From: Capitulum mitella | Lineage: Eukaryota; Arthropoda; Thecostraca; Pollicipedomorpha; Pollicipedidae | Assembly: GCA_030062745.1 (NCBI GenBank) | Contig: CP099843.1 | Span: 4,713,001 to 4,777,000 of the forward strand | Direction: 5' to 3' | DNA length: 64,000 nt | Shown here: positions 3,991-53,500 of the stretch, piece by piece | Position numbering within the stretch: the first letter of the stretch is position 1 | How the letters are laid out: every line of letters begins with the position of its first letter | Notes under the pieces: generated by a model | The model's input: the letters and a program-made list of their open reading frames with translations, nothing else | What the model was told of the DNA's origin: nothing | Databases searched by the model: none | Program-made: the position numbers and the translations under genes

Positions 3991-6900
3991 TCTGATCTCG
4001 GCATGACTCACGGTGAAAAACGGCGCGGACAGAATCTCGGCACAAAACGCGCGTAGCTGTCACCAGCGGCCCGGATCCGTGTCAAATCACGGGAAGGGCA
4101 TACTGCATCCGCCGACGTCACCGCAATTAACATCAGCCGTTTCGCACGACGTCCGGCGCGCGAGCGCTGCCCCTCCACGCCGCTGCCACGCGTTCCGACT
4201 CCCGCGCGGCGGCCGAAAGTGAAACCGGGGCGGGCGGCGCGAACGGCGTACGCTGTCGGCCCCCGCTGTACGCCCGTCAACGTGACGAGTTGAAGCGCGG
4301 CTATCGTGCGGAACGCGTAACTGGGGATGACGGTGCCGCCCCTGATGCAAGCTAAACGGACGGTGCACGGACGCCAGGCATTAGGTGGCAAACGTCGTGT
4401 TGTTATGGGTGTTTGAGAACCCACAAAGTGTTCTGAGCTGGTTTCATATTCTGGATGAAGCGACGACAAAAATCCACAAACTGTGCTCAACTTGTAAAAG
4501 TTTTGTTCACCTTAATATGAAACTGTAGTGAGCGTGGCAGAGGGGGAGGGGGAAATGAATACGCTGGAACAAGACAAAGACATCTCTCAACACCATTCAG
4601 GTTCTAGGCAGTCTAACGAAGTTGGTGATTTATCTTCGAAAAAAGCTGGTTATAAAACCGCTGGTTATAGCCACGCCACAACCACAAACACAAAAAAACA
4701 GATTCATGGTCTTCGTTTAAAAGCCGTACGACCATGATTGACACAAATGATGTCAGCGACCGTCTTCTTGACCTCGGCTTATTCCGATTAGTTCGTGCCG
4801 TCATTAATCAAAAACAAACGGAACATCGTCGCGGTGTCAAGCTCCGCGCTGTGCTATTTGTCCGGCCAGTGATAAATGCTGTGCTATTCGGCCAGTCATA
4901 AATGTGCAAAAGGGTGGGTACTGGTCGCGTGCCTTCGTGAAATAATTGCCTGACATCACGTCTTCACAAACTGCCTGGCCATCTGTGGTCGCCCTCTAAA
5001 GCAGAGGAGTGAGTTCCGGGGCGTTTAGAGGTTTTCCACCACCTAACGTTTCACGTGGCATTGGCGGATCCAGACGGCCGTTCCGTTTTGTGAGGAGTTG
5101 AAAGGGCGCAGGCAGTAAGGTAGCTCAAATGGTGCGGATGGATATCAATGACTCCGATAAGAAGGTATAAGATGTGCCAATTGTTGTACAATGCGTCTCG
5201 CTTTAATCGCAGAAATTGGCAGACACTTGCTACAAGAACATGGATTCTAATCTTATTTTGAGAAGCAGGACGTAAGGTAGTCGCTGACCATATGACCACT
5301 TAGGTACCCCTGGTTTGGCCCTTTGTTTAGGGAACATTAGGCTGTTTCGAAAACTTCTTGAGTCATCCTCACACATTTTCATTGCCAGCTTCCTATAGCA
5401 GCGGACAACAACCTACCTGTTACAAAACACCCTCCTTGCTTTTAACTTTGACACCATAGCGTCTGGCAGGATCGGAGAGTGAGACCACTCCGAAGGCCTA
5501 TAAACTGACGGGGGGATCGAAAGAATCGACGTTACGCCGTCTTCGCTACGTCGGCAAAACACCGGCACAAGCCGCTTTCGCCTCCACCTGGTCCCGGCCG
5601 GCCGCCCACAGCGGAGCGCACCACATCCGCGAGCGTGAGCCGTCGGCAGCACGCGCTCCTCGCCCCGTCTCCCTTTGACGGCGCAGTGGGGGAACCCCTC
5701 AGAACGGGACGAGGGGGCGCGTTAGACCCAGCTGGACCACGGGGGCCAAACGGTCGGTTTTCGGCCGCTGTCCGGTCGGCGGCCAGTCGCGTGGCGGCGC
5801 TCCGCCAAGGCGGCGGACTCGGCCGCCACTGCACGCGCGTTTTTGTCCGCGGCCGCGCTCCCACAGTGGCACTTTCTCCCCGACTTCATTAGCGGAATTC
5901 CCTGCCGCCGCCGTTTAGCGGCAAACGGCGCCCCAACCGCTTAGTGTTGAGCGCCTTTTATGAGGTCATTTGACTTCAAAATCCCACTCCTTTGCAGAGC
6001 GGCGTTAGGTCGGACGCTGGATTGCTGCCGTTCGGTAGCAGATAATAACATGAGCGCCGTTCAAGTCGACATTCGTGTCAGCTGTCACATCCCGGTTCGA
6101 TCCTTTTCCTCTGGCGTTGTCCAGCTTCGTTCTGCCGTCTGAGACTGGCAACTGTCGCGCACAGATGCATCACACGACGGCCCAGCGATGGCTGCTCGCT
6201 CGGACCCTTTGTCTCGCCGGCCGTGGTCCGGTACATATGGTCCGCCCGAGACCGTGGTCCGACCGATATTGTCCGTCCCGCCGGCCGTGGGCCGATACCG
6301 CCGACCGTGGTCCGGTCGAGATGGTCCACTCTGCCGACCGTGGTCCGGTGGAGATGGTCCGCCCATCGAGCGTGGTCCGGCAGACAGCGCCGACAGCAGC
6401 CGCTCGGACTCCATTTACGGTAGTCATGAACCGCAGGCTGGCCCGCCGCGGCCGCCTAGTGCCGCCCGAAATGCGGCGGCGAGCCGAACCGAGCCGGAGA
6501 AAGGAGCGGCCGCTCCGTCCGCCCTGTGGACGCCGGAGAGCCGTCGGTCGCGGAAACCCGGGCCGGCGCGCGGCGAACGCGACGCCGGCGCGTGAGAGGC
6601 CGGTAGCGCCGGAGGTCAGCGCGCGGGTCGCCGCGAGGCGGCCGGGTCAGGGGTCTGGGAGCGCCGTCTTATGGAGAGGATGTCAATTTGTTCATTAAAG
6701 CCCGACGTGGCGCAACGGAGCAACGAGAAAGTGACAAAGGAGCGTCGTTAAAAAAGATACAAGCCTATGTGTTCTCCGGGGTGAGAAAGACATTCCCGAC
6801 GGAGATGATCATCCCGCTCGAGCACGATCCCGGCGCACCTCTCGGCCGCTGATATCCGGCGATGAAAACAACAGCGCTGGGGAATGACTGTTTACTCGCA

Positions 6901-13800: not shown

Positions 13801-15147
13801 CATGACAGGTAATAGGTTTACTTCACTACCCAACGCAAATGCATACTTTTCCCTCGCCAACGAAAAAAAAATGCAACACAATGCAAAAGCTGTGCGATAA
13901 ACAAACCTGAAGCACTGCGAAACTCACGAGTGGCGGGCCGCTCGCGCAACAGCCGAGTCCATCCCGTTCGCTGCGAGCTCAACAGTTCGTACGATTAGCC
14001 CAAACAGCTCCCTCGCTGGAACAGTGGGGTCCGGCGGCGGCGGCAGCGGAGCGGGACCGCTGGCGGGTCAGGGTCGCTCGGAGGCGGTAACACGCACACT
14101 AACGTCGCCCTGCGGTGATCACATGCGCTCGCCATGGGTGATTACTCCTATCCGTGACCAAGGCCGCGATTGTCGGGTCTTGTTGACATGGGTTTGTTTA
14201 TCGCCTGCTGCTTACCATTACGCTCGTTTTTTGAACGTGTTCAGGGGTGAGAAAACGTCACTGGAATCCATTTGGACAAGAACTGCGTAAAAGCGCTTTC
14301 TCCATACTTTCGTTTCGCCGAGCCCAGGTCAACAACGAGAAGCAAGACTCCAGCATGCTAGGTCCACTAGGCATTACGAAGATTTCTAGGTCTCGGCTTT
14401 GCAGAGACATCAGGAATACAAATAACACGGTATTGCATGGAAGCCCACAGAACATGGTCGCGTCGTACAGGAAGAGTGGCTCATACAAACCACAAGTGAA
14501 AAATCATTTAAGCTTTCTTGAGGCACACGAAAACTTTTCTTGATGGCTGGAGAGCCAGCAACCGACCTGTTGCAACGAACTCGTGCGAAATTCAGCCCAT
14601 CCCACTACCCTGATGCCACTGCAGAAATTCCAAGCCAGCCAGTCGAAAGCCTCATATCACTGGAATGATTCACCCAGACCCGAATCATCCCGAAATGCCC
14701 CATTGTCAAAATTAACCAATCTAAGACAGCCGCGATCCTCCCTCGTCAGCGGTCCGGGAGTCCGATTTCCAGCTGAAAGCTCAGAGCGCCGTCGTGAGCG
14801 GCCGTTCACTTGAACGGCGGGCAACCGAACGTTGTCGTCACGCGCTTCCCGACTCTGACCTGGCCTGTCACGCGCCGCCGGTGCTGGGGAGGCGTGCCCC
14901 TCTCCCCCCCGACTCCAGGGGCCACGCCCACCCACTGAGCACTGCACCACGCAGCGTGCGTTCTCCAGGGCAACTTCAAACACGACATTTTCTAAAGCAC
15001 GTTCCACTGTTTAAACCCGCAGCGACCCACACGTGCACGGGACCACTAAGCATAGCAGCGATCAACACCGCAGCGTCCCATGGTCCGGCGGGACGGCGTG
15101 GGGTGTGGAGGTGGCCGTGCTGGGTCACGGGCCGCGTCCATACTCAC
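7831..15147. other. Long stretch with scattered GC islands, no recognised gene
   Basis: GC-rich islands lie at about 10040-10520, 11240-11600, 12190-12560, 13400-13800, 14030-14100 and 14740-15060, separated by AT-richer sequence. Intact-looking frames such as 9364-9723 (119 codons, plus) show no known motif. If the D8C gene continues left, this is intron sequence. No RNA gene or intact mobile element was recognised. Confidence 0.35.
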
Positions 15148-15372
15148 AGTAGCAGGGCGTGAAGCCGGTGCGCGAGGTCAAGCCCGGCGGGCAGGCGACC
15201 TCGTGGCCGGCGCAGTAGGCCAGGTTGCAGCCCGGGCTGGGCGGCAGCCGGTACACGGTGAAGATGGAGCAGTTGCGCACCTGCAGCGGCACCGTGCCCA
15301 CGCAGCAGTCCTTGCCCTGGTTGATGCAGGCTGTGCGGGAGACGATGCCCTCATCGGGAGTTGGCACCGCCC
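15148..15372 (-). CDS. D8C protein exon 3: second half of D8C domain
   Basis: The acceptor is GGGCAG, entered in phase 1 to complete a glycine codon after WLK, and the donor is TACT followed by GTGAGT. It encodes GIVSRTACINQGKDCCVG, VRNCSIFTVYRLPP, GCNLAYCAGHEVACPPG and ends near TPCY. The cysteine spacing completes the D8C domain begun in exon 2. The exon ends in phase 1, so at least one further exon must follow at lower coordinates or beyond the window. Confidence 0.75.
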
Positions 15373-18300
15373 CTGCCCGGCACACGTGAGTGTCAGCCTG
15401 TGGATCTCCGCACCGGAGAGCAGGAGCTAATAAACCGCGTCAGGATAAACATGCAGGCGACGGTTGAAAATTATGAGTGAAAGGACGATTGCGAGGCTTA
15501 CTCGACAAACACATTTCTAGGCCTTAATGTTTCGAGGAAAGTAGTGTTGTTCTGAAGCCGTGCTTATATTAACCTTCTGCAGACGTTTAGAGTGGACTAA
15601 TGGGAGCAATTCGTGCTAATGCAGTCAGTTGGGCAATGAGCTGCATATGGTTGTCAAATGAAGCTATTCCTTGCCAAAACTTTCTGCTTTTAGAATTATG
15701 AATTACAGTTGAGCCCTCCATACTGCTGGCAGCTGACACTGGGCTCTGTCTGGTTCGATGGCGTGGCAGCGGTCCTTTAGAAGGTGGCACAGTGTCGTGT
15801 TGAAAGCAGAATCCGTCTGTTCGGTCAGGGAATGCGGCGAAACATTGTACTGACATTGGAGGCGTCTCATGAACTTTCCGTCTAGCTTATTACGGCCCTC
15901 TAGACTGCAGGCTTCCACAAACAAGGTCCGAGAACGTCTCGACTGAGCTACATGAGACTTTCAGTGCTCACCTTCTCGCACGATGACGTCGCGATGATCC
16001 ATACGTAAACCGGCTTTGGGTTATCATCTTCGAAAACAGACGGAATTTGCAATGCCCACAGCTGGCCAAGACGGAGTTTTGGGTGTTCAACTTCGAGTCA
16101 GACGGACCTCCAGTGCTCACTCCTTGAGCCGTCCGGAGTTCAGAGCGCTCGTCTCTGATTCGGCCGGAACTCTCATTGTCCACCTTTGAGCCAGACAGAT
16201 CCGCAGTACTCACCTTTGAGCCGTCCGTATTTCGGAGTGCTCATCTCTGACCCAGTCGGAGCTTTCAGTGTCCACCTCTAAGCCAGATGGAACTCCAGCG
16301 CGCATCCCTGAGCCGACCGAACCCTCGAGTGCTCACGTTTGCGCCATCCCGAGCTCGGAGCGCTCACCTTTGAGCCAGATGGGACTCTGCGTGCCGCAGA
16401 AGCCGGCGCCCGGGCAGGCGGTGGGCATGTTGCCGCCGGCGGCGCTGTCGAACCGGTACCAGCCCTCGGCCAGCAGCCGGTCGCAGAGCGGCGTGCCGTC
16501 CCTCCGGCAGCCGGTAGTTGAACGAGCGCTCCACCTGGCCGGCGATCACCTGGTGCCGGCCCGGCGAGCACGGGTCCGCCTCGACCGCCCTGCGCCGGCA
16601 AAAACGACGGTCAGACGGTCGCCGGCCGGGCGGGGGGAACACACTTCCCACGCCGGACTCGCGCCGGGTGACGGGTGACGGTCGGCGGGTGTGACGGGTG
16701 ACAGGCGGCGGGTGTCGCGCGAACGGCAGCGCCGTCCGCCGTGTTACAAATCGCAGAGCGTGGCCCCCGACAGAGACGGACGCGGCCGACTCTAATGAGA
16801 CGCATGCAGGCTAGACTGTGACAGTTCTGACGAATGGGCGAAATTAGGCGGCTCGTGGTGTCATCGGAAATGATGAAGCCGACGTCCGTTCGGTCGTTGC
16901 TTATCAAACTCCAGGAGAGCGACTTCGAAGCGGGACATTTCTCACGGAACACTCGAGGAATCGCGTTTGTTCGTTTTGCGCCGTTTCGCAGTAACAATGG
17001 TATAAAGGCGAAAAGACCCAACGGTGAGCATCGGCGCTGAAAGCCATTTGGATGCAAAGTAGTTGGTTCGCTCAACATTTCCTGGACTCACAGTGAATTA
17101 GAAAGCGCGACTGAATGATGTTGCTCTTTGTTGGATGCTGTTTACAACTGCAGAGTTTAGTAAATGTGGCATTGTTCGACTTGACAGAATGGTCGGTTCA
17201 GCTGCAACCGGCTCCATACATTCTCTTAAAGACATGTCTGAAAAACTCTGGAAATAGACATTACTATTCCAAAACATTTAATTACGACTCCATAAAAGTG
17301 TCGTGTATCCAAAGAACTGCATGCCAGTTGACTGCAGAGTACTTACTGGTGTTATGTGGAGATGACACATTTCTTGCAATTGTCATGACGGAAAAATGGT
17401 TCCTTCCATCGATATCATTTGTGCGTTGTTTTTCGTCTCAAAAGGTGACTGGAAGAAGTTTTGCGACTTAAGACGCTCGCCAGTTCAGCATATGGCGTGA
17501 ATATTTCAGTCGCAGTTCAGCGCTACACGGCGAGTCCATCGAACTATGACACGGCCAGTGTTTATTAACAATGTGTGCCAAGGTTCTTTCCACCGTGGCT
17601 TGCCTATGCCTGGATAATTTACCTCATTAAAATCTACATACAGGTGGAGGGAATACTCCTCACGACCAAAGCTCACAATGGGTAGTGACCTTCCCGAAGG
17701 ACATCGACATATGCCGGCTTACCTCACCAAATTTGCGGGTTCATCGTTGTGGTGTGTTTTACAGGAGCAAGTGTCTGCGTTGTGTGCTCCCATTCCCAAG
17801 ATCTCAGAACATTTAAATGCCTACTTCAGAAGAACGTGACAACGTATGTGATTAAGTAGGCGGAGTAAGCTGCATCAAACCAAGATAATGCAGTTGAGAG
17901 CCACAGCCACCCCTACATGACACAGTTTGCGGGACCGCGCGTGGAAAATAGTTGGCTGTAATGAGGTTATAGCAAACACGGCGTCTCTCTCTCTTTCCCT
18001 CTCCCTCACCCTCTCCCTTCCCTCCCTGCCCTCTGTCTCTCTCCCCTCATCCTCTTTCTTTTGTTCTCTCTCTCTCCCTCTCTCCCTTCCTGCCTCCCTC
18101 TTCTCCCTCTTTTTTTCCTTCTCTCTTCCTTTTCAATCCTCTCTCTCACCTCTCCGCACTCATCCTTTCCCAGCATTTGTCATATTTCTTAGGGATTCAG
18201 TACTACTGTATGGATTGATCACGACGGCTTAAAGGATTCTGGCATAATGGGGAAAACGAACAGCACGCAACCTTTTGGAATATTTAGCATTACGCACTGG

Positions 18301-38102: not shown

Positions 38103-38470
<368 letters not shown>

Positions 38471-50550: not shown

Positions 50551-53500
50551 CTGAAAGTGGAGTTCATCCAAGTGTGAGGCGTTTTATGGAGGGCGTCGGC
50601 TACTCCGTTCTACAGTAAATCACGCCGTCAGGGGTTCTGACAGCTTTACCGTAAATCGCGTCGTAGGAGATTGTGGCGAAGTCCGAGTGTAAGGAATCCC
50701 CAGTGAAATCGATGGGAATAAGATGCGTCGGATCATTACTGATGTTCTTTACGTAGACCACACTTCAGTACTTGCATCCCCAGCCACAAATACTCGTAAG
50801 CAGCCATGTTCGACAACACTATGTTCTACTTCTGGAAAATAAAAAAACGCGGAATTAGGAGCCTCTTCCCCCAAGAAATACAGCCTCCACGTTATAGCCA
50901 CACACAGATGTGCGTGGCTATATCTGTGCAGTGTAGCCACACACATCTGTCCCTTCTCGCCCCCCCCCCCGAGATTATTGCCGTCCAGACGTCATCAGAA
51001 CGAGGGCTGGCGCGACCCGATCTACGAATCGTGGGCAGTCCACGCATCACACACCTGGCGGCTTCCACTTGGGGGTGCCGACCTGCCGTTCGACGGGCGC
51101 CGCCCGTATCGCCGAGGCCATGACGGGCGGCCTGGCCCCCGAGTTCACGACCTTCAGCACGGGGCGACTGGGTGGGGCCGGAGAGCCCGCCAAGCCCGCG
51201 CCCTTCGAGGCCGCCGAGCGACGGCCAGCTGCCGATTTTGAACTTGCCGCCGCGCTCGCTTTCGGCGTGGACGGCTTGGCCGCCGGGGTTTTCTTCGGCT
51301 TTGCGCTCTTTGTCGGTTGTTTTTTCTTCGGCTGGAACTCCTCGTCCGAGACGCTGCTCTCGCTGCCGCTGTCGTCCGACTCGTCCGAGGCACTGGCTCC
51401 ACCCGCCCACTCGTCTTCGTCGCCAGCCGAGCCTGTAAAGGGGGCCATTCAATAACGCATGCAAAGACTTTCGATTTGAGTCCACCATAACGTTACACCA
51501 AAAGGCTCGAAGAACTATTGAGAGGATTCGAAGACCGCGACGGAAAATTCAAAGGCTTTTACACTGGCAGGTAAGAACGGCTGATGAGGCCAATTCCACG
51601 ACGCAAAGGTCTCGGAAGAGATGTAAAGGGGCGTAACTGAAGCTTTCGAGACGTGATCAAGAGTCGGTATGAGTTCAATTCCGTCCAATGGGCACGATGA
51701 AACTCGTAAATGGGATTCCTCAGTCGACTGCATGCACATAGTGGAATGCCTTGCATGGTGATCGGCAAAGCCCGTCTCAAGACCCTGCCTCAATGGCCAA
51801 ATATCAGCCGTCCCTCCAGCAATCACGATCAAGATCGATCTTCTGAATCGAAAAGCAGCCGCATTCGTTCCGGCCTTACTCTGCGATGTGATATCTTGGC
51901 TAGTCCCCGCTGTGTTCCTGAGGCTTGACACCACATCGTCTTGCGACACCGGGATGGTGTCAGCAGACTTGATACTATGTTCCTGGGATGGGGCGTCCGC
52001 TGTATTTTGTATTTCACTCCGGGACTTCTCTAAGGCGATCTTGATTTGTTTCTGCAAGAAGCCGTACCACAGTCATTCAGTGGCGCAGCCAGGAGGGTCC
52101 TAGGGGTCCCAGGACCCCCGAAATGTTTGACGGGGCCCACCGAGTTAACTCTGACAAAAACCGAAGCTATTGCTAAGTTGCTTTAAGAATGGTACCCAAG
52201 AAAAGACAAAATATAAAATATATTGATCCAAGCCTATAGAAGGACCCCTATCGGCCTCTACGGATCCATGCCAGCCTGCGTGGGCCTCCTGTCAGCCTGT
52301 AAGGGCCACCTGCCGACCTGTAGCGGCCTCTGCCCGCCTGAAGGCCCCCCCCCCCCCGCCAGCCTGTAGGACCCCTGCCGGCCTGCAAGGCCCCCTGCTG
52401 GCCTGTAGGGGGTCCCCTACCGGTTTTTTGGGCCCCTTACCCGTCTGTAGGGCCCCGGCCGGCCTGTGAGCCCCTCTCAGCTTTTGGAGGGCCCTGCTGG
52501 TCTGTGGAGGGACCCTCGCTGTTCTATCGGGCCCTGCCGACCTGTAGGGCCCCCTGCCGGTCCTGCTTGCCTCCTGCTTGTCCGCAGCTGGCCCCCTGCC
52601 AGCATGAAGAGGTCCCTTGCTGACACGCAAGGGCCCTTGCCGCCGCTTACAGCGCCCCCTGTCGGCCTGTGGAGGGGCCCCCGGCCTGTAGAGGAGTCCC
52701 TGACAGCCTGCAGATGGGCTCCCTGGCAGCTGTGCGGGACACAAGAATGGCGTTCTAAAAATAATTGTTGGTCCCCAAACTCACATAACATTTCTTATTT
52801 TTGAAACGGAGGAAATTTGACTTCGGCTCCATGACCCGCATGCTCACGAGACCGTTCAAATAATTTTCTTTAAGTTATCTGATCGGCTTTCTTCCCATGA
52901 GGACCTTTAGCTTCTGCACGAATTTCGTATGGGATAAAGGCAGACGAAACACGCCGGCTTGGTGCACCTTTGGTCATGTATTTGCTTTCGCCCCCCCCCC
53001 CCGCCCTTCCCTTTTCGAAAAATCCTTAGTTCGACTCTGGAAACATATTTTAGGGAATAACTGAAAACATTTCAGACTGTGGGTGTTCCATCTGCACTGC
53101 TGGTGCCAATTCCAACCTGTGGGTGCCGGAACACACTCAGAGAGATAAGAAACCACGCCCCAGGCAGTGGCAGCCGCAGTAAAAACTTATTTTTTGGCGC
53201 GATCACCGACAATCAGAGAAGAGCGAACTGGTTGCAACTAATAATGTTTAGGAACGGCAAGCGTCCATTGCCGCAGATTTTTCACTGACTGTTTTTATTC
53301 AGGGGGCCCAATCATAGGATAGGAACCACCTTTGGTCAAACACCTTCCGAAATTTTGGAAAAAAAACACCCTGCTGCGAGCCCCCTGTCAAAAGTTAATA
53401 TTTTTGTCCAGGGGCCTACATGAAGTGAGGGGGCCACCGCTGAGCGAGAACCCCCGGAATTTTGGCTGGCTGCGTGAATCACTGAATTCAGGTGGCTGGT

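Follow-up and report, generated by a model that had tools for sequence, protein, structure and literature searches.

A minisatellite at a D8C exon/donor junction of the barnacle Capitulum mitella, and its likeness to the mirages of lancelets

In a gene of the barnacle Capitulum mitella, the last bases of a coding exon and its 5' splice site appear to recur down the following intron as a tandem array, which raises the questions of whether the repeat is real, whether it arose from the exon/donor junction and what its additional donor-like sites might do to splicing. We examined these questions in a stretch of 64,000 nucleotides (hereinafter the window; contig CP099843.1 of assembly GCA_030062745.1, positions 4,713,001 to 4,777,000), to whose first letter all coordinates below refer. 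The gene, which lies on the minus strand, codes for a D8C domain and is uromodulin-like. A conceptual translation, manually assembled by joining two exons and, within exon 2, two reading frames, matched the Pfam family D8C_UMOD (PF23283) with E = 4.3e-15 and 56.1 bits against a cut-off of 27, and matched four distinct uromodulin/GP2 sequences in PDB (best E = 2.3e-18). The ORF over exon 3 (15128-15439) matches PF23283 above the cut-off by itself (4.4e-8, 33.6 bits); neither of two ORFs over exon 2 matched PF23283 in the Pfam scan, which took in ORFs of at least 78 amino acids, the frame of the second half of this exon being shorter. The two exons are as follows:

16368 to 16589, minus strand: D8C-coding exon (exon 2 of the initial annotation), from the alignment to uromodulin and the sequence
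15170 to 15372, minus strand: tested part of the next D8C exon (exon 3, whose 3' end is not fixed), from the PF23283 match of the ORF and a frame that is open when joined in phase

We set the 5' end of exon 2 by eye, at a GCAG acceptor, and its 3' end at AAAG|GTGAGC. The last bases of the exon, up to 16368, are thus CCCATCTGGCTCAAAG, and the intron opens with GTGAGC; the protein reads ...SPIWLK|G in phase 1. Exon 3 begins at 15372, preceded by GGGCAG, and the phase 1 intron between the two is 995 bases long. Joined in phase, the exons read PIWLKGAVPTPDEGIVSRTAC at their junction and stay open across the tested part of exon 3; this joined reading aligns with a 21-residue stretch of human uromodulin, and IWLKG, encoded by the exonic part of the repeat unit, is aligned with MWLNG of the human protein. 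The domain and uromodulin/GP2 matches, together with a donor at 16368|16367 that is in phase with exon 3, bear out the D8C exon and its donor as named in the initial annotation. As a separate matter, the reading frame differs between the halves of exon 2 at 16481-16510 on the minus strand (DPCSPGRHQV...RLPEG versus LCDRLLAEGWYRF...WLK); as assembled, this frame change may reflect an error of assembly, damage to the gene or a gene structure that has escaped recognition.

The repeat unit of 31 bp comprises 20 exon bases and 11 intron bases, and the array runs from the end of exon 2 down the intron to about 15961. Self-comparison, which had been proposed as a check on the period, confirms it: self-match values of 0.448 (lag 31) and 0.479 (lag 92) exceed a simulated maximum of 0.374 (the largest value across lags 10-199 in 2000 first-order Markov sequences). 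TRF recovers only the 92-bp (three-unit) period, in two rows over 16072-16319, and a permutation of the units gives the three-unit block a marginal p value of 0.063. When the array is aligned cyclically to a 31-bp consensus, the score is 512 versus at most 221 in 60 shuffles, the former value being biased upward since the consensus was taken by eye from the array; the alignment reached both ends of the stretch supplied to it, and the ends of the array are thus not fixed by this method. Units in register start at 16387 (the exonic one), 16356, 16324, 16295, 16264, 16233, 16202, 16172, 16141, 16110, 16079 and 16048, and the cyclic alignment adds degenerate units starting at 16017 and 15990. This amounts to ten clear units (one exonic and nine intronic), 12 in register and 14 at most with the degenerate ones included. 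Hence, of the 13-14 units or so originally placed at 15958..16395, the repeat is real, while the higher count is reached only at its upper limit and the span is closer to 16387 to 15961. The array can be divided into three parts:

16357 to 16387, minus strand: exonic unit, the last 20 exon and first 11 intron bases, recovered by a profile of intronic units only (E = 6.2e-5)
16018 to 16356, minus strand: the 11 in-register intronic units, of which nine are clear, from cyclic alignment and profiles
15961 to 16017, minus strand: two degenerate units, the last of which retains GAAGGTGAGCACTGA, from cyclic alignment; weak by profile (E = 1.1; 2.9 with the intronic-only profile)

A profile of ten units found all ten of its members at E of at most 0.032, followed by 15974 at 1.1 and by its best place outside the array at 1.6; with two profiles, no place in the window beyond the array scored better than E = 1.6 or 1.7. 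The core of the unit, with up to three mismatches, occurs five times in the window (0.04 expected), each time inside the array. Searched against the barnacle's own genome (477,042,490 bases, 16 contigs), the array with its flanks (501 bases) matched only itself at E <= 0.001, a result that is no proof of rarity since the search skips common words. The 491 bases over the array fold as RNA no better than shuffled sequences (z = 0.07).

With the profile built from the 11 intronic units alone, the match to the exonic unit (16386-16358) covers the boundary at 16368|16367, in keeping with the proposal that each unit is a version of the exon/donor junction; the last two of the profile's own members score just E = 1.4 and 0.44. 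Pairs of units are 47-83% identical. The exonic unit shares 0.60-0.74 of its positions with the individual intronic units (mean of the 11 values about 0.67), and the intronic units share 0.62 among themselves. On average, the exonic unit therefore resembles the intronic ones more than these resemble one another, as expected of a source, which favors the original suggestion that a coding exon end and its donor expanded as a minisatellite.

Seven in-register donors were scored by rank among all 7353 GTs of the window (both strands), with human donor frequencies as weights, which are suited to ranking only. Three of them are strong and one is weak:

16362 to 16370, minus strand: presumed authentic donor AAG|GTGAGC, GT at 16367, in the top 0.1% of window GTs, with a phase that fits exon 3
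16331 to 16339, minus strand: weak decoy donor AAC|GTGAGC, GT at 16336, in the top 2%
16208 to 16216, minus strand: strong decoy donor AAG|GTGAGT, GT at 16213, in the top 0.03% and above the authentic donor
15966 to 15974, minus strand: strong decoy donor AAG|GTGAGC, GT at 15971, in the top 0.1%, its nine bases identical to those of the authentic donor

The GTs at 16183, 16120 and 16275 are ordinary, at the 7.2, 7.7 and 10.7% levels of window GTs. Thus, the ladder of usable donors that had been envisaged is retained in four rungs, one of them weak, and is lost at these three sites. Computed U1 duplexes likewise put 16213 (-10.2 kcal/mol) ahead of the authentic donor (-9.6); however, 16275 (-6.2) and 16183 (-6.1) form more stable duplexes than 16336 (-4.7), and the ranking of the weak sites thus varies with the measure chosen. 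In the remainder of the intron, the GTs at 15413 and 15501 also fall within the top 5%.

The three strong donors are nearly equal and lie within 397 bases of each other; the motif AAGGTGAG followed by C or T has three sites on both strands of the window, all three within the array. In a sample of the genome made up of 20 stretches of 10 kb, a broader donor consensus occurs 16 times over both strands, and none of the 90 TRF rows of period at least 12 in these stretches holds two donors on one strand. Across the 20 stretches and the window, three strong donors come within 450 bases of one another nowhere but in the present array; as the sample covers 0.04% of the genome, this marks such clusters as uncommon and does not imply uniqueness. 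Within the array, the donor columns are kept neither better nor worse than the other columns of the unit (p = 0.38), which gives no indication that the decoys are under selection.

The use of a later donor had been expected to shift the frame in two of three cases. We translated seven donor choices into exon 3, namely the authentic one and six others, and obtained a different picture: the authentic donor leaves the frame open over the part read, and all six alternatives run into a premature stop, five of them in the array at the TGA of the GTGAGC of unit 2 and one in exon 3. Even with 15971, whose 396 additional bases are divisible by three, a stop is reached. Alternative donors are therefore predicted to yield truncated messages and not a family of protein variants, and such messages would likely be degraded.

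In searching for precedents, we found the closest in amphioxus, where one report (PMC3087553) describes "mirages", tandem minisatellites at exon/intron boundaries, in Adh3 and the globins BflGb6 and BflGb9, and another (PMC3902484) adds a mirage in TnC and imperfect repeats in PGBD5. In the former account the splice signals are present in many, not all, of the repeats, RT-PCR data for Adh3 and the globins suggest that regular splicing is unaffected, and mirages are proposed as a possible explanation of intron gain. The barnacle array resembles these in consisting of minisatellite-like tandem copies across an exon/intron boundary with splice signals in many but not all units: its tandem unit is of minisatellite length (31 bp) and spans the boundary, and GTGAG[CT] occurs five times on the minus strand in 15958-16367, three of these being the strong donors. 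Judged by its anatomy in the sequence, the array is a mirage. Its unit of 31 bp compares with 10-72 bp in amphioxus Adh3, and its pairwise unit identity of 47-83% marks it as far more diverged than BflGb6, for which 81-100% is given there. Whereas length variation and normal splicing are shown in these accounts for the amphioxus mirages, the barnacle array is known from the DNA of one assembly. The hosts also differ, mirages having been described in lancelets and the present array lying in a barnacle genome.

Two further systems bear comparison. A study of human segmental duplications (PMC2812944) reports internal tandem repeats at exon-intron boundaries, with units of about 30 bp on average, which can accompany new or cryptic splice sites; these repeats are of recent origin, differ between paralogs and frequently code for protein, whereas the barnacle array is old and intronic except for its first unit. 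A potato gene is reported to have gained an intron via tandem duplication (PMC4974935), and resembles our case in that a duplication across an intron/exon boundary gives extra splice signals; there the duplicated boundary was on the acceptor side and gave rise to a new intron, whereas in the barnacle the donor side is multiplied and no new intron is seen. The phenomenon is thus already known, and the present array is apparently a likely case of it outside lancelets, the group in which it was described; we found no report of a boundary minisatellite in a crustacean among the open-licence papers covered.

We consider it probable that the minisatellite was born from the exon/donor junction, is old and decaying, and leaves splicing mainly at 16368. 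Under this scenario, a segment over the 3' end of the D8C exon and its 5' splice site would have been tandemly amplified, presumably by slippage or unequal exchange, initially as single 31-bp units and possibly afterwards in blocks of three, and the resulting mirage would have come to fill the first 400 bases of the intron. Most copies would since have lost a good donor by drift; on the simplest reading, selection at the protein level would have held the exonic unit near its ancestral state as the intronic copies drifted. Splicing would be expected to take place mostly at 16368, the donor nearest the exon; an occasional splice at 16213 or 15971 would lead to a stop codon and message decay, and the decoys would be neutral. 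We count in favor of this reading the period beyond chance, the junction content of the units, the closeness of the exonic unit to the intronic ones, the exonic part that aligns with uromodulin, the confinement of the strong-donor motif to the array, the lack of a comparable donor cluster in the genome sample, the donor columns that are kept like the rest, the stop after every alternative donor tried and the published mirages with normal splicing, and against it the weak match of the exon when the exonic columns are used alone (see below), the marginal three-unit block and the strength of the decoys. Since 16213 scores higher than the authentic donor and 15971 equals it, donor strength does not predict exclusive use of 16368.

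The strength of these sites raises the alternative that the decoys are partly used, with 16213 and 15971 competing with 16368, stop-bearing messages being degraded and array length or donor strength tuning the output. Three near-equal strong donors in so short a span and a stop in every alternative would suit such a role, but the donor columns are not better kept than the others, most copies have a poor donor and the published amphioxus data (PMC3087553, PMC3902484) suggest that splicing is undisturbed by mirages; we hold it to be unlikely. A bolder form of the idea, a barnacle splicing rheostat in which U1-binding decoys at 16213 and 15971 divert messages to stop isoforms and an array length that differs between individuals sets the output of the D8C gene, strikes us as distinctly improbable.

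An opposite polarity, with the intronic minisatellite coming first and the exon end or the donor being taken over from a repeat unit, could account for the rank of the exonic unit when the profile is restricted to the 20 exonic columns, since it then comes seventh among the places listed, with E = 0.3. Yet the alignment of IWLKG with MWLNG of human uromodulin implies that the exonic sequence is likely older than the array, and the exonic unit is closer to the intronic units than those are to one another; we find this polarity very doubtful. The different reading frames of the halves of exon 2 could instead point to a damaged gene copy or a wrong assembly, the array being without meaning for splicing. 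However, unit pairs of 47-83% identity are unlike the mis-assembly of a repeat, and apart from the frame change both exons match D8C and their splice sites are in phase, so that we assign this explanation little probability; the question it poses concerns the gene and not the existence of the array.

If such an array is confirmed in a crustacean, boundary minisatellites would not be a peculiarity of lancelets, and the array would provide a natural series for studying the choice of the spliceosome among near-identical 5' splice sites. It would also be relevant to the gain of introns through tandem duplication, a process to which mirages could, according to the amphioxus report (PMC3087553), supply the raw material.

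Across the whole window, D8C alone scored above the cut-off in the Pfam scan (29 of 235 window ORFs of at least 78 amino acids), and neither Rfam at gathering scores nor ARAGORN with the bacterial code found anything. The window has a GC content of 0.490, the genome sample (20 stretches of 10 kb) one of 0.499. CpG is not depleted: its observed/expected ratio ranges from 0.88 to 1.13 across three parts of the window and equals 1.02 in the sample. Long T runs at 38105-38467, up to 124 bases by TRF, possibly mark an assembly problem. A likely exon at 51050-51448 (minus strand) encodes an acidic and lysine-rich sequence with a sub-threshold match to the YL1 nuclear protein (16.9 bits against a cut-off of 29.2). 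Upstream of a likely exon, a second degenerate minisatellite at 52230-52780 (minus strand) has a unit of about 20 bp with an acceptor-like CTACAG|GC in several units; we rejected it as an acceptor-side mirage of the exon starting near 51431, its profile match being at chance level (E = 4.2). A third degenerate minisatellite, with a unit of about 31 bp (CCGTGGTCCG...), lies in GC-rich sequence at 6221-6390.
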